This document shows, piece after piece, positions 3,481 through 64,000 of a stretch of DNA of 64,000 nt. The position numbers were made by a program, and so were the translations under genes. The DNA comes from Ectocarpus siliculosus (Eukaryota > Sar > Phaeophyceae > Ectocarpales > Ectocarpaceae). Position 1 is the first letter of the stretch, and the number at the start of each line of letters is the position of its first letter. Location of the stretch: assembly GCA_000310025.1 (NCBI GenBank), contig FN649736.1:1036736-1100735 (forward strand). Reading direction: 5' to 3'. The notes beneath the pieces are model-generated. The model saw nothing but the letters and a program-made list of their open reading frames with translations, ran no database searches and was not told the DNA's origin.

Positions 3481-3776
3481 CCCTACCCTCTTCGCCTCTG
3501 CTATCCTGCCGCTTCCTTTTCAGGGAAAGCAAAGGTGAATTCATACTCCTTCATCACGTGCAGCCCGACACCGGGGGTAACCTTGGGGCAGGAGCATTAC
3601 CACCCCGTCAACTTGATCACTGGGGCAACGGTTGTTCATATATCGTTGTGGAGGCCACAGCAATATGTGGAAAATTGCTTCCCGCGTGACCAAGGGTGAA
3701 GGAGTATGCAAGGGCACCGCCTTTGCTTTCCCTGAAAAGGAAGCTGAAGGATAGCAGAGGCGAGGAAGGCAGGGGG
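3481..3776. repeat. Foldback element, arms about 80-90 bases
   Basis: The left arm 3481-3561 is the inverted copy of the right arm 3684-3776. Both contain gcttccttttcagggaaagc on opposite strands. The spacer is about 120 bases. Probably a foldback or MITE relic. Confidence 0.7.
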
Positions 3777-3779
3777 GTG

Positions 3780-4640
3780 GGGGGGGGGCGAGTGGTCACA
3801 ACTCAACGGTTTTGGAGTTGTGAGGGAATGCTCGCTACAGTCACACATGGAACCGACACCACAAGTCGCGAATAACGCCTTTGACATGTAGCGCGGTGTA
3901 CTTTTACGGCAACACAAAAGAAGATGAAACGAATTTGAATGCTCCGAGGTATGTCACACACATGGACGCGATGTAATTGATAACAGAGCTTGAGAACTTG
4001 GAGAGTACGTCCATCATTTCCTGACGTCACACGTCCATTCCTCTCGGTTGCCGTGCCATAGGCAAGCTTTTTCCCTCATGACAAAGGCAAATGAAATCAG
4101 ATCGAAAACAACTCCGGTGGAAAACAGCCAACCCACCTCTCTAAAAAAAAGGTACCAGGCTGTTGGCTTGATTGAAAGACGGGGGGTTTTGGGCTTACGT
4201 ACGAATTACATAGAGCCAGAACACGATAGCGAGCGTCTTTCCTCTATGATGGACATCACGGCAGTGCGAAGAAAAGCAACGCACAGCTATAACATATCTC
4301 CGGAGTCGGCTGTGGCTTGTGGAAAAGAAATGACCGCAGCAGCGACTCCTGGAAGCGTTCCAATTTCCAGTATAGACAATACGTCAAACACCATGCAAGA
4401 CCCGGAACACAGAGCGAGGGTGGAGCTTCCGTCCTGACGGGAACAAGCGCACACCCAAATGCACTATAATGCTCTCAGGTGGTTAAAAGGTGCGGGTCAC
4501 GCGGGCTTCATCCCCAAGGCGAGGCAGAGGGTACCCTTCGGCTCCACCCTTCGGATACAGAGTATATGTAGAAAAAAACACCGAGGCAGCGCAAACTTGC
4601 ACACAAAAACAAAATCACCCACACTACTGCTGTTAGTTTT
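3780..4640. other. Non-coding stretch, nothing recognised
   Basis: No repeat module, exon pair or RNA gene is visible here. One 129-codon open frame at 4048-4437 lacks any family motif and is not called. Confidence 0.5.
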
Positions 4641-10062: not shown

Positions 10063-10835
10063 TAGAAGTTTGGCACTTCACAAAATGCCTCCTTTCATTT
10101 GCGACATTACCTGCTTGGCCGCCACCCTGGGCGCTTGGCCCCTGCCGTAGCCCCTGCCCTTGTCCTTGTCCTTAGCCTTGGTCATACGCTTGCCCAATCT
10201 TTGCTCGGCGGGGACCGTGGAGTTGCCGTTTGTGTCGATTTGCCCACGCTTCACCCCGCCCCAAGGGGAGCCGAAGACAGATAGAACAGCAATACAAGCA
10301 TGTCCCANNNNNNNNNNNNNNNNNNNNNNNNNNNNNNNNNNNNNNNNNNNNNNNNNNNNNNNNNNNNNNNNNNNNNNNNNNNNNNNNNNNNNNNNNNNNN
10401 NNNNNNNGCGCCAGGAGGGCCTGAAGAAAGATCGAACAGCAACAGAACCCTGTCCAAGGCCGCTGCCTTGAACTCCACGGTCCCCGCCGAGCAAAGATTG
10501 GGCAAGCGTATGACCAAGGCTAAGGACAAGGACAAGGGCAGGGTCTACGGCAGGGGCCAAGCGCCTAGGGTGGCGACCGAGGAGGTAATGTCGCACATGA
10601 AGGGAGGATTTTTGCGTGAAGTGCCAAACTTCTAGGTGTGTCGATTGTTAGCCGGGATAACGTCCTGGTTTGTGCATCGTCATAGACGTGAGAGCATTCG
10701 ATATCAGCATCGAGCGGGAGTTAATCCATCATCAATGGTGTTGCTTCCCCAACTTGAAGTTGGCTGGCTACCATGACCCAAACGAACTCAACGGCACCTG
10801 GCTCCTCTCAATACTGTCATGCCCGCTAAGGTTAA
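9869..10835. repeat. Large inverted repeat (modules E and F) around assembly gap
   Basis: The left arm 9869-10290 and right arm 10420-10835 are inverted copies, with long near-identical tracts such as gcccttgtccttgtccttag and cgcttgcccaatctttgctc on opposite strands. Similarity is highest over about 10040-10240. The spacer is the N gap and its edges. Confidence 0.85.
10308..10407. other. Assembly gap of 100 N
   Basis: The gap sits in the spacer of a large inverted repeat (arms 9869-10290 and 10420-10835). Hairpin formation during cloning or sequencing is the likely cause. Confidence 0.95.
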
Positions 10836-21074: not shown

Positions 21075-24000
21075 TCAAGCTTCCTCCTCCTTCACGTCCT
21101 GGTTGATCTCAGCCAGGCTCTGGGCGAGGTCGAGGAGAGACCCCATGTCCTTGCGCTCGGTAGGATCAGTAGCCAAAAAGTGAGGGAGGGATTCGAGCAG
21201 CTGGAAAATTGGAGCGGCACGAAAATGAGGGGGGGGGGGGGGGGGGGGGGGGGCAAAAAAAAGGGGGGGGATTCAACCCCCTGGAAAGGGGGGGGGGGGC
21301 CCCAAAAAAAGGGGGGGGGGGGGCTTTTTAATTTTTTTGGGGGGCCCGGGGGAAAACCCCCCCCCCCCCCCCCCCCCCTGTTTAAAAAAAAAAAAAAAAG
21401 GGTCCTTTTTTTCCCCCCGGGCAAAAAAACTCAAACCCCCCAGAGGCCCCCCTTTTTTTTTTTTAAGGGGGCCCCCCCCGGGCGGGGTTTTCCCCCCCCC
21501 CTTTTTGGGGGGCCCCCCCCCCCCCCCCCGCCCAAGGGAAAAAAATTTTTTCCCCCCCCGGGCCTTTTTCCCCCTTTTGGGGGAAAACCCCCGCCCTTTT
21601 GCGGGAAAGCCCGGGCCCCCCTTTTTTGGGGGAAAACCCCTTAAAGAAAAAATTTTTAATTTTCCCCCCGGGGCCACCCCAGAAAAAAGGCCCCGGTTTT
21701 TTTTTTTTTCCCCCCCCCCCCCCCCAAAACCGAGGGGAGAAGGGGGAGGGGGGGGGCCCCCCCCCCCCCNNNNNNNNNNNNNNNNNNNNNNNNNNNNNNN
21801 NNNNNNNNNNNNNNNNNNNNNNNNNNNNNNNNNNNNNNNNNNNNNNNNNNNNNNNNNNNNNNNNNNNNNGGGGGGGGGGGGGGGCTTTGAATATTTCTCG
21901 AGAGGTCCAGGGAGAACTCCCATGCACATGCACACCAGCTGTTCAGATGAAAGCAACGATTGCTTCGTTTTATCCCCGTTGTCATACTACTTCAGACCCA
22001 CTGAAGGCCTCCCTTTCTATTTTCTAAGGCACGCCAGCCCGGTCCGGTTCTTCACCCGCCCATTTTCGGTCGTACCCTCCGTACCCTCCGGCCACAGGCA
22101 ACGCAGTCTTGTCCCCCACCGGGCCTTTTCCGCTCTGCTTGGAGTAATCGCCATGCATTTGCGTGAGTACGTCTGGTCCCACTTATTCTGGACGATACAC
22201 CTTACGGACAAAGTTCTGAATGTATCGGCCGGAGCAACACCGGAAGAAGGCCACAGGTTTTTTTTTCTTTCTCACAGCTCTACATCATAGTCTAGGGCAG
22301 ACAGCGAACGGGCGGCACTACCCTCACCATCTCAGGCGACTTGAGGGCCGGGTCGAGCTTGTCGGCGGAGAGCATCATCGCCGCGAATGATCCGTCCGCC
22401 ATCGTCCTTTTGGTCATGTCGATCTAAACGTGCGGCGTACACCAAGCAAGATCAGTACCGAGAAGGGGAGGAGGAGAGAGCGCGTCGGGAGAGGGAGAGG
22501 AGGAGGTGTTGCGGAACGTTTCTTGCTTGGTGTGGTACACATTCACCACAAAACCCCAACTTTTTCTGCTAGAATCGAAGACACACGCACGCGGTGGGTG
22601 CAGGGAGCAGGGGAGAGCGTAGCGCGCCGATCTATCAGTGATGCCGACCGGAAAGTCTCATGAGCAAGATCACCGACGCCGGCGAGCCGCCGGCCACTAG
22701 CAAAAGGCTCTACATGCCAGGCCTATCCCAAACACATTCAATTGTACCACATGATTTACCTGTGCCAATTCCTTCTCTGCCGAAATGTCTTCACCCAGGG
22801 TCATGCGCTGGAACAGCTCCTTCAGCCTGGTCATCTCGTCGGAATTGATCAGGGCCTGTGTCCGGTGCACGTCATGCGGCCGCGACCGGCAACATAAAAG
22901 CAACTGGCGTTACTCATCGCTACTCGTCAAGTCCGAAAGGAACTGGCTGCCGTACCGTCGGTCGACCAATAACCATCTATGTACATCGTCAATTTTTGCA
23001 AAAGCACAATTGCTGATTGAAGGTTACCCTCTCCAGGGTACACAACATGACAAGGAACGGCGGTGTCGTGCCCGAAGGATTTCGTGGCAAACACCTGTCG
23101 GAGAATGTAAATGCGTTCACACGACACTGCTGCACCCAGGCGCTCTCCTCTCACCATGTTGGCGTACAGGTTGGGAGACCTCAGCTCCTTCCTCAGGCAG
23201 ACCATGAGGAGCACCATCGCCACGCCCACTACGTCTTGCCCCGCCGCACCCGCCACAGGCTCCCTCGACATGCTCTCAAACGCCATGTATCCCGGGGTGC
23301 CCATCATCGCCGGGCAACTCTCACCGATTTCTGGGGGGTCGTGTTTTGTGTAGCACGTGCAGAAAGCACGTCGAAGTAGGAACAGCAGTTCGAGGAATTG
23401 CACAGGGGGAGCGCTTAAGTGGGAATCTCCTTCACCTACTCAAGTGAAAACAGCGACATATCCCGTTCGAGGCAAGCCCTTGTCCCTGCTACCCAAGGAG
23501 AGACAAGACCGACTTACCGGCGCTTAGTCAAGCGTTTCTACATATGTTTTGGTCGAGAATTACTTCCCTGTTGTACACTGTATCGCTACCATCATTTTCT
23601 CCTGTGGTATGACAGGTAACGGCAATCTCCTCACTGTCCTCAAACGTACGTCGCCAAACTCAACCAACTAACTATCGGAGGGTGGGGGAATGGCGCGGCG
23701 AAAGCGCTCGACGCTTTTCGAAACATGCCTATCACCGACCGCCTTCAATAGATGGCCTGGCGTTTCGCATTCCATGTCGCGTGCATCTGCTCACTTCCAA
23801 AAAACACGCCGGCTCGACCAACTACCGTAAGGTTGCGAGTCAGTGCATACGGGTGTCATCGATTTTTAAAGCGTAATTTCTCCACAACAACCAGGAGGTT
23901 ACCACTGAGGAAAAAGGCGGTTTTGGAAGCATCTCATCGAGAGCTTTTCTGGGAAGTATCAGTTGGCGCTCGCACCCTGCTGGTTGTGGAGAAATTACGC

Positions 24001-48468: not shown

Positions 48469-48557
48469 ATGCATGTAGTCTATGTTTTATTATTTCTGTA
48501 CCTGTGCTGCATGCCCTCTTTGCTTCTATTCGATACTGCTTTCAGCCTACAGCGCAT
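48469..48557 (+). CDS. Candidate first exon with signal peptide of the RCC1 receptor kinase
   Basis: An ATG opens a very hydrophobic 29-residue stretch (MHVVYVLLFLYLCCM..) that ends in a consensus donor, CAT|gtaagaa, in phase 2. That is the phase required by the exon at 51210, which starts with one base. The leader would suit a secreted ectodomain. The intron would be about 2.65 kb and contains the third assembly gap, so another leader exon in or near the gap cannot be excluded. Upstream ATG codons in the same frame exist. Confidence 0.4.
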
Positions 48558-51500
48558 GTAAGAACAAGTAAGTCCAGCACCCAGCAGGTTTACCCCCCCA
48601 CTCACTGCAAAGACTTTCAACACATGGATGGTCCGTGCATCCCATCGATGATAATAGCTGCCAACCCAATTGGAAAAAAAACGAAAAAACAGAAAAAATT
48701 GGAATTTAAAATGGATTCTCGTACCCTCCTTGCGCGTGTAGACTACAGTATGTAGGTGCAGCTCGTGCAGCGACCTTGCAGCTTTTTACCTTTTTTTGGC
48801 CCGTGACTTTGTAGGCTTACTATTGTAGCCCTAAACCCGTCTAGCGCCGCGGCTTAGACTTACACGACACAGCTTTCGATCAAGCAAGCCAGTCGTTAGC
48901 ACCTCTTCGTCGGCTGTGCGCACTTCCTTCCGCAGGGGTGCGGCATCAAGGCGGAAGCATTCCGGCGACTTTTTTGGTATATAATAATGTGAAGTAAAAA
49001 CGGTGGCATGAGGGTATGTGTATGCATGCATCACACCGCGTCCGTGTTGATGTTGTAAAGTCTACATAGCCTAGCCCTCTTGTTTCGCTCTTGTGGGCAC
49101 CGACCATCATTGGCATCAGGTGGTGGACACGCACGGCGGTCCGGTGCTAGCAGAGATGGAACGGTTTCATATTTGTGTCGATACAACACGCGCCCCCCCC
49201 CCCCGGTAATCGCGGCACCATTCGGTGGATCTTTCGGGAGAAAACCTGCTAGGCCGGATCAACCATCCTTGTTGTTATGTACTCCTATGTTTACCACACA
49301 TATATTTATTGTAGTATACCTGGTGCGTCTTACCGTACTTCGTAAAACAACACCCGCGGGGAGATATCGATGTATGTATGCAGTATGCCGCTTGGGGAAT
49401 CGTAGAAACAAATGTAGGGCTCCCTAATCTGTGAAATTCATTCATTGCTCTCCTACAGCAGAACAGTAGACCCTTGTCGATGGACGGAGATAGACGGATT
49501 TTATTCAGAAGAATCTGTGTGTAGTATTGCCTACAGAAAGTTGCGACACGCTCCTGGCTGTCCGCTCATAAATCTGGAGCTTACTGCACGTGTCGTAGAC
49601 CCCCGCAAATTCATCATGCCACCCGATCGAACCCTATGCATACGACAGAAGAAGTGAGGGTACCTGTTTTTCCCCCGAGTCCCTCGTGTTCCTCGCCCCC
49701 AATAGATCCTAGCAAGCGCCTAAGGCCATCCCAGTGGAAACGATGAACGGACGCTCCCAAGGCTGGCCGTCATGATGTTGGTCGGGGGGGGCGGGGGGGA
49801 GGTCTACCTATTGTAAATTGTAAAGTATTTATTCATAGCTGTGGTTCTACTGCTGTGTACAGTAGTACAACATGTTGAGTGCGGCTATTCAATGGATAAC
49901 CCACACAGATGATTGATGTACTCCTAAAAAGCACCGTCCGTTTTTGTCTGAGGTATCGGCTCACCGGTGCACATGCCCACCACACCCTATTGTTGTGGAA
50001 AACAACAACTCCGGTAGTCTAAACACGTACAGTACTTCAGCTAGGGCCAAACCTAACTCAGTGTATGTAACCGGGACGTCTTGCGGCGGAGTGAACGGTT
50101 CTTGACTGGAATGCGGGGGCAACGCCATCGTTGGTAGAAAGAAAGTCACCACTCCTATCTGCTGCTGTTCTCACTGTGTAAGCGTCGTACGTATGCTTAG
50201 GAAACAAAAAGTAAGGAGTATGCATAGCTCGCATGGGCTTTGGCAACGACGACTACGGTGGAGTTGAACATAAGGAGTAGAACGGTGGCAGTCTTGCGCA
50301 ACAAATATCGCCCGCAGTAACACCCCCCCCCCCCCACCGTGGAAGTTGCTAGGGTCCCTCCGACTTCTCTCCTCGCGAAAATTAACCCCCTCACGCCACC
50401 GGTGATGACATGGATAGAGTATGTGTACGGAGGGGGGGGGGGGGGGGCCCAAATCGGGGATGCCCAAATCCTTAAAACATTGACCCCCCATCCCCACAAA
50501 ACCGGGAAGGAACACCCCGGGTTTTCCCCGGAACAGGGTTTCACATTACCAAACGCGAAACGCCCGGGGGGATNNNNNNNNNNNNNNNNNNNNNNNNNNN
50601 NNNNNNNNNNNNNNNNNNNNNNNNNNNNNNNNNNNNNNNNNNNNNNNNNNNNNNNNNNNNNNNNNNNNNNNNNNNNNNNNNNNNNNNNNNNNNNNNNNNN
50701 NNNNNNNNNNNNNNNNNNNNNNNNNNNNNNNNNNNNCACATACAGTGGGGTAGGGGGGGGGGGGGAGATATTACTCCCGTTCGATTGCCTGTTGTACACC
50801 AGTACCTCGTGTGCATCAACCGCGTGTGTCCAATGACCCGTTGGGTTCGATCGAGCGCCGCCCCCCCCCCGTGTTGACTGTAGGGGTTGGTGTAGTGCAG
50901 GTGCTAGAGATGGTTGTGAGCGATTGCTTGTGTTTGGTTCTTGCTCTAAATGGGGCGTTTCCGACCCTCCGGGGGCCACCTATTCGTGATTTAGGCCATC
51001 AAGAAGAAGTACGCTAAAAAGCTACAACGTCACTTAAGCCTTCCGCCGCCCCTCCCGCCGCCCCCCCCCGGTCTGATTCATTCACACGGATGCTTCACTT
51101 CTCGCGGTAGCCTTTCCCAGACGCGGCAAAGGAGGCGTCCGAGCACGATGCGACGCTTGGAGCTGCGCAAGTTGTCGCTCTTGTGTCACATTTTCCACCT
51201 CTGTATTAGCTTTCTGGTGGAGGTGGCCGATTCGTCAACGACGCCAACAGGACCTACCGTCGCCGGAGGGCTGTTCCACACGTGAGAAGACGGGCAGGGG
51301 TTGTGGTTCGGGGATGGGCGGCGATTTTTGGGCCGCGTGCCTCCCAGCGTCTGGGGGCTGGTTACCTTCCCTCTTCTTTCATGTCTGGCAGATGGCGGTG
51401 ACGTGCTGAGGATACGTCCCTTCGCGATGCGGCAGGGGGATCGATGAAAATAGCATTTCACCCACGTACTGCTGTAGGGCCAATGAGAGAGCCCGTGAAC

Positions 51501-54500
51501 TTGTATGTATACAGTTGAAGGTTTTATCTCGAGAGGGGTGAAATCATCGTGGTGGACGTTTAGTCGTTCTTTTCTCTTCGTCTCTCTTGCGCCTATTGTG
51601 AGGAGTGACCCTACGCTGTAACCGTCACTCCGCGCGGCGTGCGCAGAATACCACATGCATGATGTTTCGGTGGATTTTTTGACGCGTGTTGCCCTTCGAC
51701 CATGAACGACGGGCGAACAAACACCCCCCCCCCCCCCTGCCGGTAGAGTCCTTTGACTTGGAAAGCGCGTGGAAAGCGTGTTGGTTTTCCTTTTTCCCGC
51801 TGTGAGACCGACGTCTCCCCGCTCGTTGGCGCGGTCATGCTAATTCAAGAAACACTCACACGCGCGCGAAACAGGTGCGCGGTGTTATCGGACCTATCGC
51901 TCAAGTGTTTCGGGGGGGGCAGCGCCCTAGGAGTGACAGAGCTGGAACCCGGGTCGTCGGTGGAACATGGCTTCGGCAATTTCGGCCAACTGGGCACCGG
52001 CAACAATGAAACCCTCGGAGATGAGGTGAGGGCGGCGACCGTGACCATTCCCGGGATGGATGCCGGGATGTAGTAGCTCATACGTTCATACCATCAAGTG
52101 GTACTTACACTGCGGCAGGGCAGTCGGAACCCCTCGGGGCGCGCTTCCATTGTGTTATCCCGCACCGATGTACCATGTAGGCGAAGTCCCAAGCCGTTCC
52201 ACCCCAACGCAAAGAAGAACGGCCAGCTTGCGTTCGTGGGGAAACGTACCGTCTGGTTACACGGAACTTGCTCTATGCCATTGAACTATAATAGGACGCG
52301 AATACCACAAGATGCTTGGGGGAAAGGATCGACGCCCAGCACTCGTTGACGATTCACCCCAAGGGCACAGTTTATCTACCACCCCGCGCGCTCTTGCCAG
52401 CGCTGGCAAGACAAATTTTACTGCCATCTGCCACCGTACTCTGACAGCCAGCAATGTGCTTGCTTTTCGGACTGTTGGTTGTCTGTCGCGCACGTGTCGT
52501 CGCTGCTTGCTTGTTTGCCTTCAGGAGGACGAAATGAGTTCCAATCTGCCGGAGGTTGATCTCGGAGGTAACACGGTGCTGCAGGTAGCGGCCGGACAGA
52601 GCCACACGTGCGTCCTACTGGCCTCGGGGAACGTGGCGTGCTGGGGTTTCAATGAATATGGCCAGGCGAGCGAGCAACAGGGGTTCGGGTCGGTAGATGT
52701 ATGCTCAGGTAGCCGTTTCCGGGCGTAGCGTCGTACTAAGGTGGCTTGGAGCTTTTACAGTGCGCTGCCACCTTATCCAAAAGTTGCTTGTGCTATCCGT
52801 GTTAACACGGTTGAAAAACGTACGAATTTGGGAGATGCTCGATTGCTGCCGTCGTCTTGTACTCACGCCACGGCAGCCCTTTGAAGCGATGGAACATGGT
52901 TCTTGCGCATCATACCACGCCGAACGGACGGAGATGGGTGTGACCCGTACTTGGCTATGTTGTACAGTATCACCGGGACAGTCGGCTTGCGCTGCTGTTG
53001 TCGTTGCCACTGTGGCAAACCTGCTGCCGCACGTGCGGTGAGTCGTTTCGCGTCTGGCCTCGCCGTGTTACGACATGTAGCTTTTCGGCTCGGCACCGCC
53101 CGTTCCCTCCCGTGCGCTCTTTTCGTGCAAATCGTGCAGTGAAATCGGTGAAACGATCAGCGCATGTCCCAAGGCGACCCACGTCTTGCCGTTGCCTTTG
53201 CTTTCGGGCTTGCCCTGGTTAGCCTCCGTATTTATTGCCTCCTTGTCTACTCTGACGTTCTCCCTGGTCGCATGTCTATCATTGGGTGCCGCCGTTATTG
53301 TCGATCGCACAGCTCGGTCTTGGGGACACCGAGCACAGAGGAAACTCTTCTTCCGACATGGGGGAGGGTCTGGCTGTCGTAGACCTGGGGACGGGTAGAA
53401 CGGCAACCCACATCGCTTGCGGACAGTACCACACGTGCGCCATTCTCGACATTGGGGCCCTGAAGTGCTGGGGGTACAACTCCTTTGGCGCGTGAGAACT
53501 ACATTACTTGTATTGCGATTGACTGAGGGGGGGGGGGCAGTGATGATGGGACCTACATTGTACGTTCATTCCGTTTCTGTCGGCTGTGACATCGTTCTGG
53601 CAGCGTGTCGGACTGCTGTTTTCCTGCTAGTTTTGGGTTTTCTTTGTCCCTTTTTCGTTGTTTGGCCCCATTTACTGCCGTCGCTCGCAGGTTTAGGGCT
53701 AGCTTTGCGTGTCGTCTTGCTTCTCGAACACGTTCGTGGCCAGACGGCATATGCACGATTTGTGGTGTCCTTACGGTGGATGCCTCACTCTTGTTAGCGC
53801 GTGATGGTGGTCGTGTGATTCCTCCCTTCCCTCCTCAAGCGCACCCCAAGCACTGGCGCCTTCCACGGCAATATGAGACCACGTGATTTTCCGAAGCACT
53901 CGTCGCGGTGTGACTGACCGGTCCGTTGGAAGGGCCCGATACAGCTGTCTGTCTCTGGCGACCGCGCAAAAGATTCAAGAGTAGTCTAGTGATTCGTCCC
54001 TGACATTGGCTTGACCTTGTCTTTTCTCGTGCGACGTGCTCTTGGCTGCTTGCTCAGGTTGGGGCTGGGAGACACAGACAATCGGGGAGAAGCGAACGAT
54101 ACAATGGGTGACAATCTACCGTTTGTCGACTTGGGTACTGGTGAGATAACTATTGCTTGTACAACTAGACAATTTTTCCGCCCAGGCCAAGTAGGAAGAC
54201 ACGCATGCATACATGGGTTCACATTTACGTTTACATCAATCGGACGGGGGGATTTTCATCTCTTCCCTTCTTTGTTCCCACCACGCCGAGAAGAAGAACA
54301 GTCCTAAGTCGAAAAAGCCGGCGCTCTCGTCGAGATACGGAGCGTGTACACATAATGTCAACGTTTCGCGTGATGTTGATACCAACCAGAACGGGCCTTT
54401 GATGTCGGTGTAAGCTAACGTTCGTTGGGTGGTGCAAAGCGAGGTCAGGTGTGTACCGCGACCAAGGGTACGATGCCTTGCAACGCTAATCTCACGTGGC

Positions 54501-57500
54501 CCACGAGCTCCCCCGACTAGAACTCATCTAACTTAACTTTCAACCTCGTTGGCGTCTTCTTGTCGCCCGTTCTGCTTGCTCCTGTCCATCGGTGGCGCCT
54601 TCTTTGGTACCGGGGGACGGTTCGGTTTGGCAGGACACACGGCCTTGGCCGTGTCGGGAGGCAGGCATCACACTTGCGCTATCTTGGACAATGAAGCGTT
54701 GAAGGTGAGCCAGCGTCGGACATAGGTTGACACTGGCTGACTTGATTGCTGTGAGCCGCTTGTACAGCGCGCCGGGACGTGAGTACGCCCATGGACGTTG
54801 GGTCGTTGCTCTGAGGGTTCCCAGAAAAACAATCACAAAGTAAAGGGATTTTCATACGATCAATCTCGCCGTGGAGATACCTTTCATGTATAGGGTTCAA
54901 CCCCCATGCCTCTCGTGTATGGTGGTTATTTTATTTTTTTGCTCGAGACAACCCCTAAGTGGGGCTTCAGGATACCCGCCCCAACTCCTGCAACCCATGT
55001 ACGCCATTACCCCCCGAGATATGCTGAACGCAATCTGGCCTACACCAGCTAGTTTGTATAGTCCCGACGTAACATACGCATCTCCACCAACATCTTCTTT
55101 GGTGCCCCACCTCGGTCGATCGTGTCATGACGTCATGGCAACAGTGTTGGGGGGCGAGGAACGATACCTCGTCCAACTACGGCCAGCTGGGGCAAGGCAA
55201 CACTGACGGTATCGGTATCGCCCCAGGCCAGATGGGAGACAATCTACCCGAGGTCGACCTCGGGACAAACCGGACAGCTGTGGCTTTGGAGACTGGCTGG
55301 CACCACACGTGAGCGTATCGAGGCTGCGGGTACACGGACTGTGAATGAATATAATCTGTATCTACATGTATAGTGAGTTGTTGTTTCTGAAGATTGCTGA
55401 AGCTGAAAACTTGTTTTTTTCTGAAGCTTTCTGAAGCTGAAATCTCTGCTGTTTCGTTCTCGTCTCGAAGCTTTGCTGCTGCTTCGCCACGGACCCATTC
55501 CCGACACCGGTTAGTGTCCGAGGACCCAAGAGCCGTAAGTCACCTCCCTATCGCGCGCGACACACACGCTCGTTCTTAGCATCGTTTTGTGTTTCACCCG
55601 CGGTGCTTTTCTCGCGTACACGGGCGAGACGCCTCGCATGCGACACCTTCGCCACTGCTCGGCTCTAAGAGCGGCGAAACGCGCACTTGTTATTAATAAT
55701 AATGCGTTCCTTTTGCCGAATCGCGCCCCCCCTCTCTCTTGCACGGAAAGGTGCGTGATCCTGGACAACAAGGAGCTGCACTGCTTCGGCAGGAACCACG
55801 ACGGCCAGCTGGGGCAGGGGGACACCGAGGATCGGGGGTACACGGCCGGGCAGATGGGAGACGACATGGTCGGGGTGGATCTCGGCGAAGGAAGGCACCC
55901 GGTGGCCGTGGCGGCGGGGCGGTGGCACACGTGCGTGCTGATGGACAACGATGAGGTGAAGTGCTTCGGTGTGAACACCGTCGAGGACCTGGGCGCCGGG
56001 CAGCTGGGCCTCGAGGACCAAATCAGCCGAGGCGGTTCCCTGGACACCATCGGGGACAACCTGCCGTCGGTGGATCTCGGCACCGGGCGCGTGGCCGGCT
56101 GGGTGTTCGCGGGGTTCGACCACACGTGCGTTATTTTCCAGGACTCCTCGCTCAAGTGGTGAGTGATAGCACGCGATTGTAAACACGACACGACTTGCTA
56201 CATATGTATTGTGCGCATGCATGTGTTTCGACTATTCTCCGCGCTGTTTAGTCCTTTGTGCGTCCAAAACCGCTCTTCTTGATTCTCTTATTTTCTGGTC
56301 GCGACTTCTGGCATCATGTGTGGGTTAAAGATTGGGGCCACAGATTAGAGGCTTTGTCCGGGCGCCCATTCTCCGGTTTTCTGTCCTCTAATTCTGCGCA
56401 TTTCGTGGCTTGTGCGTACGAATGTTTGCTGCTTCGGGTGTTGCTGTAGGAATAGGAGGCCGTTGTAACCGTTTCTTTTATTTCAGTGCGTCGTGCTATC
56501 TCGCTCAAGTCTTACATTTTGTAGTTCGGCGTAACTAACTTTCCCAAATGGCGTGTGACTTCAAAGCATGAGGATGTCATACGAAAATGGTGGAGAAATT
56601 CCGCGACCTTGAAGACAATCGTTCCAACTGTTTTTGGGCCCCATTCGCTTCCAAGTTTTTTGAAACTGTCCATTTGTTTCGGCTTCGAACTCTCTTGGCC
56701 ATTTCCAAAAATGTTGAAGAAAGGCGCCCCTTTCAAAACGCCTCTTTAACGCGGCGAAGAAGGTTGTACTGCAACCTCCTTTTCTTCCGACAAGCCTCTT
56801 TTTTTTCTCCTGGAGCAGATTGGGGCAGACTTCCACCCCAAACCCACGTGGTGCGTGAAAGGGTCCATCTAGTCTCGATTACTACTCTGTGCAATCCTGT
56901 TTCGTCGGCCCGTTGCCTTGAAGATTCATACATTCGGTCGCTAGAGGCCCGCCTGTCTACCCAATCCCCTCGCAGCTTCGAACTCAATTTGATTTTAGGC
57001 ATCATCCCCGCCGTCCACCATAGACACTCGTGTCGATTGCCAAGCACCTAAGGCCCCCCCGTTCCTGGCGCCGCCGCCCCGTGAATGAAGCTGGGGTTTG
57101 AACGCGTCTGGGCAGCTGGGTCTCGAGGACACGGATGACAGGGGGGCCGATATCGAGACCATGGGTGTGGATTTGGCTGCGATTGAGCTTGGGGGGCTGG
57201 AGGTGGCGGTTTCACCCTCACCTGTCGTTTTCGACGACGACGACGACGACAACGATGACGACGATGATGATGATGGGGAGGTGGTGGTAGAAGACGACGA
57301 CGACGGCGACGCTCTCGGGAGCGCGGATGGAGACGACGAGGTGCTGAGCACGGTAAGGGTTACGGTGGTAGCGGCTGCGAGTCAGCCGTGGGGCAACGGC
57401 AACGCCCGAAACGTGCCGGCGACGACAACGCCAATACCATCATCCTTTTTTTGTCTTTCGTCAAGCTTTGTTCCAATCCAGAGATATTGTACAAACTACC

Positions 57501-60500
57501 ATCGAGTGTTTACAGCAGTATGTAGTTTCTTTTATTGTTTCTCTCGTGACGGTTCGGCCCTCTGAGTCTTGCCGTGTCGAAGAAGTGTGCAGCGTTGGTA
57601 GTACGGTCAGGCTGTTGGCTTGGTTGGGTGGATTGCTGTTTCACTTTAACACGGGGTGTTTGGCTTCGGGGTTGTTGCTGTTTTCATACCTTACCCCGAT
57701 TGCTTGTCACGACAACGACACGGTGGTCGTGGCGGCGCGTCTGTCGCCTTGTCGGTACGATGTATATTGCAACATGCCCGCGCAACTTGAAGAAGAAGCC
57801 CGTTCGTCAAACACGATGACACCGAAAACTGACAATGATTTGGCCTTTCACCGTTTTAGTCTTGCTCGTCTTGGGTGGATGTTTTCCCCCCACGCGCCCC
57901 AGGAATGGATAATAGCTATTGCCCTCACTGCGGTGGCCGGAGCGATTTTCGTCGTGGGCATCATGTTTCTCTGCTGCTGCCGGCGTCTGGGGAGGCAAGG
58001 CGGCAACTCGGGCTTCTGCAAGAAGAAGATGAATCCCTCCGTGACCACGAGCGGTGAGTATCCGACCGACGCTTGCGAGCCGTTGTCGGTGGAAACTGGG
58101 AACGTGATTACGGTACGAGTCAGCCTTCTGCGGCCGTGCTCTTCTTGTGGCGCTCGCTCACTGCGGCGTTTGCCGGAGCGAGCTGCCATCTATTGGTTTT
58201 ATGGTCAGCCCGGTGGTCTAGTTGGTATCCTCGAAATCCTCAAGAGGTCAGGTCAGGGGTTCGAATCCCGGCGTAAGTGAGCTTTTCTTGCAAAGTTTTT
58301 CTCTCGCTTCCGCTCCTGGCCTAGTGGATAGCGCTAGTTCTTGTGTACGCAGAGGGAAGAGAGTGCTAAACTCTTCTCGCATTAAAAATCGAAGGCAAAG
58401 TACCGCGGGAGGGGAGAGTAGAGAAGGGCTCTTCTGTGTGACCACGAGTTGGAGTAAAACGGCACTATTATAGTGCTGTGAGCGCTGATTTGAAGCGAAG
58501 AAAAAAAAAATTACAATGATACCTCCGGCAACGCCGTAGCATCGCTCGGATGTAAATTGTTGCCCGCGCGTGAAGGTGCGGGATTGTTGTCGCCAGAGTC
58601 GACCCCGTGAACGAGCCGAACATGTGAACGCAAACGGTCGTGTGTTTATCTTGTTGCATACTTTACGTTGATTTTGGGCAAGACACGCGGATATCCACAT
58701 GAGACGGGATTGGAACTGGGACAGAAATGTATACCACGGGTCTCACCGAGAAGAAAATTGCACCGTTTCTAATTGACTTGCGCCCTTTGGGCCACTTCCT
58801 TATCAAACAGGTACTCATCACGAAGCCGAAGCCGGCCATCGTACGGGTGAGGATGACGACGCTCGTGGACTCGAAGGTGACAAGACAAGGGGCTCTCTCG
58901 AGATGAGGATTAGGATTCGGAAGGGTTGCCGTCTTCAACTCGGAGCAAGACGAGAACGTCGTATGCATACGCAAGGGGTTGAAAAGCTATGATGACGCGT
59001 ACCCACCACCACCAGAACCTCCTGCGTACACAACTTCGGCGTTACAAATTTGTACCATGACCAGCAATCTAGCGCTCGCCGAAATGTGTGTTTGCAATGT
59101 TCCCGAGGAGGTCTGTGTCCAGTTCCGCCACAAAGTACGCTTGTACGTATGCGAACGGACTCAACCCTTGTGAAACGCACACCAGACCTCATGTTTCCTA
59201 CCACAACGCGCTGTGCCCCTCCCTGTACCTCTCCCTCCCGCGCGGCACTGAACTGCTGTGATCCTTCCGCAGACTTTGCCGCCTTCGGACCGACCCACAT
59301 GGTGGGGGCTACGCGGAACACGCACCCCCCCAACCACGGCGGGCAGACACCCGGCAGCCAGACGCACAGCGTTTCTCTTTCAGGTTAAGCCGGAACCCTT
59401 AGTGGCGCTCACGCCAAGTGCACCAGAGGCAATTTCACCCTTCCGTGGGTCGAGAAGCCGATGCTTCGTGCTCGTAGTAATGGTTATGATACTCAGTTGT
59501 CCCTCACCGCATGTTGTTAATAGTTTGTAGTGCCGAGGTATTTGGCCGTCCGTCATAGTTCGGGCACCCGGCACATCAACGTGACAAGTTGATTGTTCCA
59601 CCCGTGTCACGCTATTTCAGTGGCCTTATGCACGGGCATGCAGCCTTAATCAGGGACCAACTAGTGCGTCCCTGTGCTCGTCGCGTGCACCTTGGGCAGT
59701 TTTTGCTCCTTTTTTGGAGAGCTTACCTCCCCCCCCCCCGCCATTGTTTCCAGGCGGCGAAGTCCGCGTGGGCGCGGTGGGCTCAGCGGGGGCAGCGATT
59801 ACCGGAGGCGTGGCGCTCGGGTGGAACATGGTCGGTGTGCTCGCGGAAGGCCTGCCGTGGATTGGAGTGGCGTACCACATGCTGAACGAGATTGCCGACA
59901 GCGTGGACACCAGGAACGCGATGCAGGTGTCAGAACGACGGGGCACATTTTTTTTTTTTTCTGGAGGGATTTTCAGGATGCTGTGAAAGTTTCGTCGGTA
60001 GCGTTGGTTGTGGGGCTCGCGTTCGGTGCTTCGCGTACCTCTCTCGGTGTCCAAGGTTTTGTAGGTACTGTGGTTTTCTCACAGGAGGCGTCAAAGACGA
60101 GCGGGGCGTTGTTTGCAGGTCGTACGCTCTTCCCAGCCAGGGACCGTGGCGATGTGCGTCATGCCCACAAAACCGTTGACTCGCGGACATTCATCGCATT
60201 GCCAAAATGCAGATGCATAACATAAACACCCGCGGAGGCACACACTTCGAGTTCGCCAGGTCTCTTATTCTTCAGCAGGACAAACGCAAAAGCGTACATC
60301 CGGCGTACTTTCAGCACCGATGTCGAATAATAGTACGTTTTGGCCTCGATGTCCATGTGCAAGACCCCTTTGTTGTTCTGGTTTGCTTAAGCCATCTATC
60401 CAACACTGTCATGTTTATCCGTGTACGACTTCATGCCGGAGAGTCGAACCAAATAAAAGTCCCCTTAGCCATGCAAGGCACCGCTCTTAACACGCACGCG

Positions 60501-63500
60501 TGCTTCGCTCCCTGCTTGCTGCGTGGTACTTAGGGCAACATGGTGAAGATCAAGAGTTGGGCCATCAGCCTGCGTGACGTTCTCGTGCAGATGAGCCGTC
60601 AGATGCAGGTCAGTCAAGTCACGGACATGGGACAGCTTCAGTCTCGCAACGGTCGGAGGAGTGCGAAAGCGAGCGATTGTCCGCTGGGGGAGGGGAGGCA
60701 GGCACTGCGACAGTGGTGTAGACTAATCCGCTTGTCGGCATGTTTCCAACGAGCGTTTGTTGCTGTCGCCAGAAAAGGGGGAAAACCTCCTCCAACATCT
60801 CGTCCTCTAGGTGACCCCAGGTTTCCAAAAGATGACATTATTCCGATTCGCAATAAATGTCAGTTTCCTCCGACACAGAGGCTTGTGTTGTTTTTTTTCC
60901 GATGATGTAAGAGCAAGCTGCAATTGTGTGTGGTGCGCGTGTGCATTTTCTTGGTCCCATTCGGTCTGGGAGCCAAGTCTACACCGTTCGTATGTATACG
61001 TGTTTTGACGAACCAGCCAGCCGGGGGTCACACAGACAGGAACGAAAGCAAAACACACGGGGGGATTTCACGGATGGCGGGAGATAACCCCAGCCTGCAG
61101 TCGCGCTATCCATCATCCATCAGTCGATTGAAACACAACCCCGGTTGCCGTTTCCTGTTGCATCCGCCGCTCGCTGCCGTTCTCCTACTCTTGCACGACA
61201 TGCAACGGTTGCCTGTCATCGTCCGACGCCTTCCCACCACGTGACGCCACCCCTGTCCGGCGATGGTAGACCCGGCCGGCGGTGAATGCTCGCGCTCTGC
61301 AGCACATGTCGACGGACGTCATGAGCAGCCTGCAGACCCTCGTGGATGTGAGTGGTTCGATTCGGCCCCGCGCGTAGCAGGCGAGGGTAAAGGGGCTACG
61401 CGGTGGGGACCGGCGCAAGGAGAGGGTGCCGCACGAGACCAAACCTTACCTTGTCTGAGGCGTGCTTGGGTGTGTGTGTTGTGTGTGTGTGTGGGGGGGG
61501 GGGGGGGGGGGTACTCATAGCCGTGCATGCCGTAGTCGTTAGACCGGTGACCTCGCGCATCCCTACAAAGCCGGGACGGACGGAGCACGCCGGGACTTCT
61601 CACTGGACCAGACTCTGGTGGGGGGGCGGGAATAGTTGACTCTCCTCCATTCTTGCAATAACGCCCTCCACCACTAAGTAGGCGTCATTACCGCTTTGGG
61701 TGCTCGCCTGCCCTGGGTCTGCAGACCACTTTCTGCAGACCACTTTGGGGTATTAAGTCCTTCCGCCGAGCGTCTCACCCACCGATCACCACCAATCATG
61801 ACGAAGGCTCCGGCCTTTGAAAACATAATAAATTGGCGTATTTCGTGACGAATAATATGCAACCCCCATCAACCCAAATTTTCTTGGAATATTGTCTGCA
61901 GACGGTCGCCTCGTACAACGCGAAGGGGACCTTGGCGCAGTATGCCTCTTCTCGCTCCTGCCAGAGGGCCGTCGACGCCGCAGACACCGCTCTCCGGGGG
62001 GCACTGACCAAGCTCAGCGTAAGCCCCAACAGGCAGCCTCGCCGGTTAACCACAGGAGTGGAGAGTTGTTAGCCTTGCCTCCTGCTTGAAGACGCCCGGC
62101 AGAATCGAGACCCTCTCCTCTCAGCGCGCACAAACCATTTTTGCGCATGCAAAGGGAGAATTTTTTATGAGTCTGGAGCACGCGTGTACGCTGCACCCAA
62201 GGGCAATGGGTGTATGTTGTTCGTAAGAGGCTCGACGACGTTTGCTAAACGGTCTTAAAGGGGTGGCTCTCTCCCTCTCTCTCTCTGTGTTTGCTCGTGG
62301 TGTGTTCCCGCTGCAGGTCGGGCAAGGCGCCGAGCTCATCACCATGGTGGGGCGCCTGCAGGGCGTTGGGCTGGTGGTGGACGAGAAGCTGGACATGATC
62401 ATCGAGCAGCTCCGGAGGCAGGAAGAATCCGCGGCGAAGATGGAGCTCAGTCTCGCCAAGTACTCCGCGTCCATAGCTGAGGTGAGAACGAGGGGGGCAC
62501 CCGATAGTCTGTCTGTGCAGGTTTTTCTAAGTGAGCAAACATACAATACTCCTCCTACTGGATAAAGTAGGTATGTGTAGAATCCGCTATGTTGGGGTAA
62601 GGGTTACGGGTTAGGGTCTGCGTGCCCCCTTCCTGGTCGTATTCGTGCAAAATAAACTTGCTTTTTATGTTCTTTGCGTAGGCAGTCCGGGCCGCCGCTG
62701 CTGTTGTTGTTTCCCAGCTAACGGGCTGTGCGCAACTTTTATTAAACATGCCGATCTGCGAAGTCATAGGCGTGCACAAGGTCCACGCACGGACAATTAA
62801 AAAAGGTTCAAGTCTTGTCCGCGCGTCTGCCAAACAACTCCACGCCATAGAACCTCCGTGCCGAATTGGTCTCCGACAATTGTTGGGTGCAAGTTTTGAT
62901 GTGACACCCGAGAGGCTGAGACTCGCGCGCATTCTTTCCCCCCTACTCTTGTCCCCCCCCGCCCCCGCCCCCGATTTGCCGGCGACAGGTTCTCGGACGT
63001 GTCTCTAGCGTCGGCAGCTCAAGCGGTGACGGGAAGGAACGACCACGCTCCAATGGCAAGGTGCGGGTCCCGCGGGAGGGGCGCGTCGCGTGTGTTGCCG
63101 TGCGTGCGAAAAAGTCTCGGTTGGCGTAGCGTCTACATACTCCCGTAGACTCTCGCGATATGGCGGCTTAGGCGTTTCGATCGGTGAACAGTACCCAGGG
63201 CGCCAACAACGCGGATTTGCCCCACATCGCCACCCACGTCCCGCATTTGTTCTGAATCGTTGTTCCCTTTGCTTGGTAGCACTGCCGTTCGTAGTGCTCC
63301 CCTCAGCACCTTGGCTTGAGATTACGTGCGTCTTGCCTGCTGTTATTCTACCGCCTCGCGATGTAGACGTTGCGTGAGCTCGGGAAGGAGCAACTGTACA
63401 AGCTACAAATTTCCAAGGACGACGTGACTTACGCCAGCAAGAGGCCCTTCGCCTCTGGGAGCTACTCCGAGGTATACTACGCTAAGCTCTGGGTGTTGGT

Positions 63501-64000
63501 TTGGTCCTGTCTCCTTCATCTATTGCACTCTGTAGAGATCGTCTTCGGCAGACGGAGGGACGTACGCATCGTTCTGGATGACGTCAAGTTGATAGTTCGT
63601 GCTTGATTCTTACGTTTTTCTAACCTCCCTGCGCGCATCCGTGCTTCTCCGTGGTTGGCAGTGAGGGCACCAAGAGTGCAGTCTTTGCGTTGGTTAATCG
63701 AAGGACGGTAGTGGCACGGTAGATATCGTGAAAGACGTCAAGGATAGTGTATCAGCATCGCTCGGATTGTTTGCCGTAGGTGTGGCGAGATATCGCACAG
63801 CATCAAGCGCTCCTCGACGTCTTACTCAAAACACTATTTGGTTATCGGGTAGGTTTACGAACACCTATCTATGTTGCGAAATGCCGGTTGCAGGTGTATC
63901 AAGTCATCCACGAGGGAGTCGTCAAGGCCGCGAAAAAGACGAACCTGGCACGGTTAGGGGTGGGCAAGAAGGACATTGACCGCGTGTTCGAGAGATTTGT
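48469..64000 (+). CDS. RCC1-propeller receptor-like protein kinase (3' end outside window)
   Basis: Inferred exons: 48469-48557 (tentative signal peptide), 51210-51281, 51875-52025, 52525-52665, 53313-53491, 54058-54140, 54634-54704, 55145-55308, 55751-56158, 57091-57352, 57903-58053, 59273-59383, 59754-59926, 60534-60608, 61303-61347, 61902-62018, 62317-62481, 62989-63060, 63367-63471, 63894 to the window end. Every junction has an AG acceptor and a GT donor (one GC) and keeps phase, giving about 913 codons. Order: hydrophobic leader, seven RCC1-like blades each with an HTC..KC(W/F)G Cys pair, an Asp/Glu-rich linker, one membrane span at about residues 542-564, a CCCRR stop-transfer, a helical region, then a kinase N-lobe with GSYSEVY and Lys in VVKAAKK. 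It should be a plasma-membrane receptor sensing something outside the cell. The ligand cannot be predicted. The kinase C-lobe lies beyond the window. Family assignments rest on motif recognition, not on a search. Confidence 0.82.
49000..51209. other. Long first intron of the RCC1 receptor kinase, with gap
   Basis: No exon recognised. It holds C and G runs at about 49192-49204, 50324-50337 and 50431-50447, a corrupted repeat H (50448-50573), the third gap, and another poly-G run after it. Confidence 0.5.
50574..50736. other. Assembly gap of 163 N
   Basis: The gap follows a poly-G tract at about 50431-50447 and a base-smeared copy of a dispersed repeat (50448-50573). It lies inside the predicted first intron of the RCC1 receptor kinase, and a missed exon could be hidden in it. 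Confidence 0.95.
51210..57352 (+). other. Seven-bladed RCC1-like ectodomain region (ten exons)
   Basis: The translated exons carry seven copies of the pattern HTC-x(6-9)-(L/V)xC(W/F)G-xNxxGQLGxGDTxxRG-MGDNLPxVDLGtGr. The seven HTC tripeptides fall at FHTC, SHTC, YHTC, HHTC, HHTC, WHTC and DHTC. Seven units match the canonical RCC1 beta-propeller. Most blades hold a Cys in HTC and a second in KCWG or KCFG, as expected for disulfide-stabilised extracellular blades. Intron positions repeat within the unit: three fall at HT|C in phase 2, others at GQ|LG or inside TG. Intracellular RCC1 proteins such as Ran GEF lack this regular Cys pair and a membrane span. Confidence 0.85.
57091..57352 (+). other. 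Acidic Asp/Glu linker exon after the propeller
   Basis: This exon finishes blade seven (KCWGLNASGQLGLEDT) and continues into a run with about 22 Asp within 30 residues (VVFDDDDDDNDDDD.., then EVVVEDDDDGD). It is joined in phase 0 to the membrane-span exon. It is therefore predicted to lie outside the membrane, directly beside it. GAC/GAT codons are mixed, so this is a coding tract and not a pure triplet microsatellite. Confidence 0.75.
57903..58053 (+). other. Single membrane span of the RCC1 receptor kinase
   Basis: The exon encodes EWIIAIALTAVAGAIFVVGI followed by MFLCCCRRLGRQ. That is one uninterrupted hydrophobic helix of about 22 residues ending in Cys and then Arg residues, a typical type I stop-transfer with the Arg-rich side in the cytosol. 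The acceptor is a C-rich tract ending CCCCAG and the donor is GCG|gtgagt in phase 1. Confidence 0.85.
58207..58278 (+). other. tRNA-like sequence (tRNA relic or SINE head)
   Basis: A pol III A-box-like tggtctagttgg and a perfect B-box-like ggttcgaatcc are spaced as in a tRNA, but the acceptor stem and most of the D and T stems do not pair. A second A-box-like tggcctagtggatagcgc follows at 58317 without a B box. It lies in the intron after the membrane-span exon. More likely a tRNA-derived SINE or pseudogene than a working tRNA. Confidence 0.45.
61509..61617 (+). repeat. Dispersed repeat H, copy in a receptor kinase intron
   Basis: Directly follows a poly-G run, as at 6822. Shares gccgtag, catccctacaaagccggg and the ttctcac(t/c)gga(c)cag block with copy 1. 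Located in the intron between the exons at 61303 and 61902. Confidence 0.8.
62590..62690 (+). repeat. Dispersed repeat T with telomere-like motif, copy 2
   Basis: ggggtaagggttacgggtta opens the copy and gcgtaggcagtcc closes it, as at 38093-38190. In an intron of the RCC1 receptor kinase. Confidence 0.75.
63367..64000 (+). other. Start of protein kinase domain (truncated by window)
   Basis: The first kinase exon ends GSYSE|gtatac. The next, from 63894, continues VYQVIHEGVVKAAKKTNLAR. The join gives a Gly-rich loop and beta 3 with Lys in AAKK at the usual spacing. Later catalytic motifs (HRD, DFG, APE) lie outside the window, so activity cannot be judged. Using the later possible donor at 63492 would insert seven residues and shift the apparent Lys to Gln. 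It fits the family less well. Confidence 0.75.

Follow-up and report, generated by a model that had tools for sequence, protein, structure and literature searches.

The DNA analyzed here, called the window throughout, is a stretch of 64,000 nucleotides from the brown alga Ectocarpus siliculosus (contig FN649736.1; C11:1036736-1100735 of a genome that was searched over 189 Mb and 492 contigs). It carries a gene that encodes, in this order, a signal peptide, seven RCC1-type blades, an acidic linker, one membrane span, a helical region, and a kinase. We think it likely that this is one gene for a single-pass receptor kinase of the serine/threonine type, in which a bacterial-type secreted propeller is joined to a eukaryotic kinase module, and that it has a partner gene on C21. 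Exons were joined through splice signals and reading frame, using the window and 20 kb downstream of it (L009, whose coordinates equal the window position minus 64000). After one correction, the gene comprises 24 exons from 51148 to 68839 (C11:1087883-1105574) and reads in phase through 1237 codons followed by a stop (Table 1). It extends 4.8 kb beyond the window, the edge of which cuts exon 18. AG acceptors are present at all 23 introns and GT donors at 22, with a single GC donor after exon 3; in the model before the exon 17 correction, the introns measured 298 to 1700 bases, the longest lying between the membrane exon and the helical exon. The content of guanine plus cytosine (GC) is 0.76 at third codon positions versus 0.54 in introns. 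The joining was done by eye, which leaves some freedom, and independent support comes from Pfam and from a paralogue on C21.

The original prediction had joined blades, acidic linker, one span, helical region, and kinase in phase, and this part of it held when splice signals and Pfam models were applied to the joined protein: the RCC1 and kinase models (RCC1_2, 4.2e-48; PK_Tyr_Ser-Thr, 1.6e-47) matched far beyond chance. Three details of the model had to change. The leader at 48469 could be joined by eye without a break in frame but is dispensable, and the simplest start is ATG 51148, which has its own signal peptide; this ATG is the first start in the exon 1 frame past an in-frame stop at 50992 and begins a hydrophobic leader immediately ahead of blade 1, as is also seen in the C21 gene and in a third propeller, L029 (the signal peptide call for the window gene is based on hydropathy only). 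The donor of exon 17 was moved from 63492 to 63471 because the alignment with the C21 gene showed that the former would insert seven surplus residues in the glycine-loop region. Finally, the end of the kinase lies outside the window, at 68839 (L009:4839). Around kinase exon 23, the downstream sequence has an assembly flaw, a run of Ns (L009:3336-3435) between two copies of one stretch (L009:2770-3330 and 3700-4320), one copy being very error-rich.

Table 1. Exons of the window gene and the parts of the protein that they encode, in window numbering.
Exon	Position	Strand	Content
1	51148..51281	+	signal peptide, then the first part of blade 1, MRRLELRKLSLLCHIFHLCISFLVEVADSST...VAGGLFHT; hydropathy peak at residue 9
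2	51875..52025	+	blade 1, carrying an insertion
3	52525..52665	+	last part of blade 1 and first part of blade 2; GC donor
4	53313..53491	+	blades 2-3
5	54058..54140	+	blade 3
6	54634..54704	+	blades 3-4
7	55145..55308	+	blades 4-5
8	55751..56158	+	blades 5-7
9	57091..57352	+	blade 7 and acidic linker
10	57903..58053	+	single membrane span IIAIALTAVAGAIFVVGIM and basic stop-transfer
11	59754..59926	+	start of helical region; no in-frame ATG from the stop at 59582 to the exon start
12	60534..60608	+	helical region
13	61303..61347	+	helical region
14	61902..62018	+	helical region
15	62317..62481	+	helical region
16	62989..63060	+	linker ahead of kinase
17	63367..63471	+	start of kinase, glycine-rich loop; donor set from the C21 gene
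18	63894..64000, on to 64039 past the window	+	kinase strand 3 with KAAKK
19	64597-64681	+	beyond window
20	65134-65295	+	beyond window
21	65692-65790	+	beyond window
22	66287-66351	+	beyond window
23	67797-67934	+	beyond window
24	68317-68839	+	beyond window

The outer half of the protein is a seven-bladed propeller of the RCC1 type. In the Pfam run, which used the joined protein before the seven-residue correction, WD40_RLD (1.5e-54) and RCC1_2 (in seven stretches) scored above their curated cut-offs, as did RCC1 (9.8e-27, six stretches). The blades start at residues 38, 116, 176, 236, 301, 361, and 426, and each of the seven carries a C-X9-C[WF]G pair (starting at residues 46, 124, 184, 244, 309, 369, and 434), a pattern suggesting that one disulfide probably staples each blade. 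Six N-glycosylation sequons lie in the outer half, aspartate or glutamate makes up 24 of the 47 residues of the acidic linker, and the membrane span follows at residue 534 with a maximum 19-residue hydropathy of 2.69; secretion of the propeller and its outer topology are predicted from these features. Across the whole protein, the eight Pfam families listed (to E 1) included no leucine-rich repeat (LRR) family, and without such repeats in the ectodomain, the gene was not classed as an LRR receptor kinase. The propeller had no match in NCBIfam. Its best solved-structure match in the PDB, when searched alone, was UVR8 (7.4e-36), which shares the seven-bladed RCC1 fold with the window propeller, as do RCC1/RPGR; none of these propellers is known to be a membrane receptor or to bear a kinase. 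The accessible part of PMC4617170 describes the RCC1 and BLIP-II templates as being without the regular cysteines.

The kinase match (PK_Tyr_Ser-Thr) lies above its Pfam cut-off, and the motifs of the window kinase are intact, with SGSYSEV in the glycine loop, KAAKK, HRDLKSANC, DFG, and APE. Serine/threonine kinases usually have the sequence HRDLK. Of the 2436 PDB matches to the kinase, the 60 best were led by an EGFR construct, with CTR1 and RIPK1 next and then mostly receptor tyrosine kinases. With an outer domain, one span by predicted topology, and a kinase containing the K, HRD, DFG, and APE elements, the protein has the general features of a receptor protein kinase. The region between the span and the kinase is called helical from a reading of its sequence and not from a computed prediction. 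Among Pfam families up to E 1, it matched just Amastin (0.079, under the cut-off of that family), its best PDB match was 0.6, and the genome gave one weak match, at C7:1552244 (E 0.97) ahead of a related kinase, that a separate tblastn search did not reproduce. A family name for this region was dropped, the matches in Pfam, the PDB, the C21 gene, and the genome all being weak or absent; it may perhaps resemble the domain of four helices at the N terminus of MLKL-type kinases.

A second gene of the same order was found on C21. The best genome match to the window kinase outside its own gene lay at C21:2988346-2988615 (3.2e-22, the next being 4.4e-16 among at least 70 matches), and RCC1_2 matches were located 5-9 kb upstream of it on the same strand. 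The gene modeled there, at C21:2979438-2990745 (L033, L032, L034), encodes within 11.3 kb of one strand a signal peptide, seven C-X9-C blades, an acidic stretch, a membrane span (GNGDSGDGGDAG), a long juxtamembrane part of low complexity, and a kinase. The propellers of the two genes are identical at 191 of 415 aligned residues (46.0%) and the kinases at 107 of 276 (38.8%), and the C-X9-C[WF]G motif is present in all 14 blades. Three kinase introns occur at the same place and in the same phase in both genes (SER/VVS, K/ISDF, and AY-S/FGV), while the others differ. The C21 kinase has HRN instead of HRD and DYG instead of DFG and is therefore probably not catalytic, so that the C21 protein would probably be a pseudokinase receptor. 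Among the matches listed, the window and C21 were the only places where RCC1 and kinase matches lay within about 10 kb on one strand. Since the order recurs in the C21 gene with a related propeller and a related kinase, it appears to have been retained through duplication, which is hard to fit with two unrelated neighbors.

Two neighboring genes would nevertheless be the alternative, namely a secreted or membrane-anchored propeller (51148-58053 plus a short tail) and a cytoplasmic kinase starting at about 59.7-63.4 kb, and several observations weigh against a single gene. The gene model of the window is a prediction from sequence; the 1700-base intron past the membrane exon could hide the first exon of a separate kinase gene; the helical region is absent from the C21 gene (best match E 2.3); and the propeller-to-membrane junction of the C21 model (exons 4 and 5) did not resolve in phase, so that an exon or a boundary must be missing from that model. 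Propellers of this cysteine-paired subtype are, moreover, common in prokaryotes in kinase-free form (no match to the window or the C21 kinase at any of 79 loci at E 0.01, see below), and the L029 propeller has no kinase match in C21:2459001-2475000. However, exon 11 needs an upstream exon because it has no in-frame ATG upstream, and the membrane exon 10 supplies the required phase 1; the C21 gene, with both halves related to those of the window gene, repeats the arrangement on one strand. We regard two separate genes as unlikely, and the earlier worry about them is largely answered by the C21 gene.

A single receptor gene could also have lost its signaling function or be a decaying copy. The HRN and DYG motifs of the C21 sister, the truncated appearance of the L029 propeller, and the assembly gaps and poor sequence (L009:2770-4320) close to the window gene would fit such a history. 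The window gene, in contrast, is open over its 1237 codons, differs in third-position GC from its introns, and has kept its kinase motifs, and we consider decay very unlikely.

The cysteine pairs set these two propellers apart from nearly all other RCC1 loci tested in the genome. Twenty such loci were fetched and examined, in addition to the C21:2.98 Mb gene, for the HTC...CWG-type motif, which was present in one (L029) and absent from 19. In a control with the same pattern, three of the seven window blades (in 10 kb of the window gene) and five motifs in L033 were recovered, some being missed because introns split them. A looser cysteine pattern added one isolated match in each of L011 and L022, and further cysteine-paired propellers may exist in the genome. 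The third propeller (L029:3177-6557, minus strand, within C21:2465001-2475000) has its own signal peptide and is 61% identical to the C21 propeller over a stretch; about five blades were found, and it looks truncated, with no kinase or membrane match within C21:2459001-2475000. In kelp, a female-specific transcript with RCC1 repeats, annotated HERC3, is reported in PMC6742357.

A kinase related to that of the window gene is found behind a different ectodomain. At C7:1543001-1557000 (L115, L031), four LRR motifs, a membrane span, and further exons are followed by a kinase with HGDLKSAN, which the whole-genome search related to the window kinase (best exon 1.3e-8). Because this related kinase sits behind a span and LRR motifs, ectodomains have probably been exchanged on a kinase module that these receptors share. 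According to the accessible portions of PMC3268121 and PMC8307928, LRR receptor kinases peculiar to Ectocarpus or to brown algae exist and are held to have evolved independently. The window gene resembles these in being a brown algal receptor kinase and, through the C7 gene, in its kinase, and differs from them in having a propeller where they have leucine-rich repeats.

Relatives of the propeller were found in large part outside the alga. A scan of prokaryote genomes with a two-protein alignment (window and C21) gave 180 confirmed relatives, the best 80 of which correspond to 78 distinct loci; together with one locus from a viral collection (L114), these form a set of 79 loci, each covering at most 10 kb. 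The best relative among these 80, from an Elusimicrobia metagenome-assembled genome, is 50% identical to the window propeller over 443 residues (391 bits), and a Myxococcus dinghuensis protein is 48% identical over 441 residues (372 bits). Within the Ectocarpus genome, L029 reached 45% over 191 residues (147 bits) and, among the 19 motif-free RCC1 loci, the strongest match reached 33% over 207 (78 bits); bit scores of prokaryotic and algal loci are not comparable because introns cut the algal genes, and identities, such as the 46% of the C21 propeller, are the fairer measure. By this measure, the closest relatives of the window propeller found in its own genome, prokaryote genomes, and viral contigs are prokaryotic.

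The cysteine spacing agrees with this relationship. At least five C-X9-C[WF]G motifs are present in 77 of the 79 relatives, a count biased by the presence of CWG in the scan patterns, which also counts against our interpretation; most relatives that span the whole propeller have seven such blades, and two or more C-X10-C[WF]G motifs occur in none of the 79. A consensus of 15 proteins contains a loose phrase like MGDxLPxVxLGxGRTA between blades, the narrow form of which is repeated three or more times in only three of the 79 relatives. Cysteine-paired RCC1 proteins with up to 50% identity and the C-X9-C[WF]G motif occur in Myxococcota, Elusimicrobiota, Bdellovibrionota, Chloroflexota, some archaea, and others, and their identity and cysteine spacing point to a subtype common to bacteria and some archaea. 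To this subtype we assign the window propeller, with the motif in seven of seven blades and 50% identity over 443 residues, the cysteine count being subject to the bias just mentioned. The prokaryotic propellers differ from the window gene in that no match to the window or the C21 kinase was found near any of them. The earlier framing, in which RCC1 propellers are usually intracellular, overlooks that the window propeller falls in a cysteine-paired subtype frequent among bacteria; 19 of the 20 other RCC1 loci examined in the genome showed no cysteine motif.

A propeller tree of 63 rows was built by a quick method from the two algal propellers together with 61 of the 79 loci; the remaining 18 were excluded, having failed the filter or having a best single match that covered fewer than about 400 query residues of the window propeller. 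In the tree, the two algal propellers fall in separate places among the prokaryotic propellers. A single algal clade was nevertheless not rejected and even scored higher (p-AU 0.743), and the tree therefore decides nothing on the number of transfers. L114 (IMGVR_UViG_3300020471_002086), the sole relative from a viral contig, encodes a cysteine-paired propeller 41% identical to that of the window and groups with archaeal propellers (support 93, not starred).

The window gene shares its plan with the CRINKLY4 (CR4/ACR4) receptors of plants, which likewise have a signal peptide, seven cysteine-paired RCC1-like repeats (predicted to fold into an extracellular propeller), one span, and a kinase in the same order. 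According to the accessible part of PMC4617170, CR4 members consist of a signal peptide, seven C(X10)CWG repeats, a TNFR-Cys domain, a membrane span, a KD/ESAF juxtamembrane motif, and a kinase, and the kinases of CCR1 and CCR2 are called likely inactive there; CRINKLY4 thus has likely inactive members beside others, as C21 stands beside the window gene. The order of domains would suit true membership in the CRINKLY4 family, by descent or by transfer from the plant lineage. The details, however, do not: in the window and C21 genes, the spacing is C-X9-C[WF]G in 14 of 14 blades, with no C-X10-C[WF]G match; no cysteine lies between the last blade cysteine and the membrane in the window protein, which therefore has no TNFR-Cys region; and the KD/ESAF motif is absent from the window gene in a test for it, while an acidic linker and a helical region are added. 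In the PDB, the two-protein profile matched the solved ectodomain of Arabidopsis ACR4 (7a0j) at 2.9e-6, far below UVR8 at 1.3e-49, and none of the best 60 of 2436 kinase matches is an RLK/Pelle kinase by name. On these grounds (the weak ACR4 match, the X9 spacing, and the missing TNFR-Cys and KD/ESAF elements), we did not class the gene as CRINKLY4, and membership in that family seems extremely unlikely to us. As a counterpart of the plant receptors, the window gene seems to have been assembled separately. The original prediction of an independently evolved propeller receptor kinase gains support, short of proof, from the same differences in spacing, juxtamembrane elements, and ACR4 similarity.

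We propose that the signal peptide exports the N-terminal half of the window protein, which would fold into a closed seven-bladed RCC1-like propeller with each blade stapled by the disulfide of its C-X9-C[WF]G pair, and that the acidic linker would hold this propeller off the membrane. Binding of a ligand at the propeller would pair receptors, and after such dimerization, the inner kinase would phosphorylate partners; the C21 protein, with a kinase predicted to be inactive, may serve as a co-receptor or regulator. A bacterial-type propeller with six sequons is compatible with life at a cell wall, without naming a ligand. A broader history strikes us as possible and, for now, rather doubtful: the algal lineage would have taken up a cysteine-paired propeller of a secreted bacterial kind and joined it to a receptor kinase module of its own, giving a receptor pair with one intact and one dead kinase, a second and independent version of the CRINKLY4 plan whose ectodomain, bacterial in origin, may continue to sense a signal from bacteria or the cell wall.

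In complex multicellular lineages, receptor kinases are regarded as one element of communication between cells. Those described so far from brown algae in the accessible portions of PMC3268121 and PMC8307928 have leucine-rich repeats. A brown algal propeller receptor kinase was not found in the literature searched, which included the available parts of PMC3268121, PMC8307928, PMC6742357, PMC8774072, and PMC11461277; a mention in the 2010 Ectocarpus or 2024 brown algal genome papers is possible. If the proposal is correct, a propeller type with an outer part akin to a bacterial subtype and with an active and a probably inactive partner would mean that evolution arrived at the CRINKLY4 plan twice, along different routes, and the two genes would be a concrete receptor pair whose ligand could be sought.

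Elsewhere in the window, runs of Ns mark three gaps (10308-10407, 21770-21869, and 50574-50736), and low-quality, homopolymer-rich sequence flanks those at 21770 and 50574. No Rfam family matched at gathering scores, and the ARAGORN scan called one tRNA, at 25883, and none within the window gene. The segment at 58200-58280, in the intron past the membrane exon, resembles the A-box and B-box elements of repeats derived from tRNA and was not called a tRNA by ARAGORN. On the minus strand, at 22927-23439, an open frame contains GTPGYMAFESM and is possibly part of another kinase-like gene.

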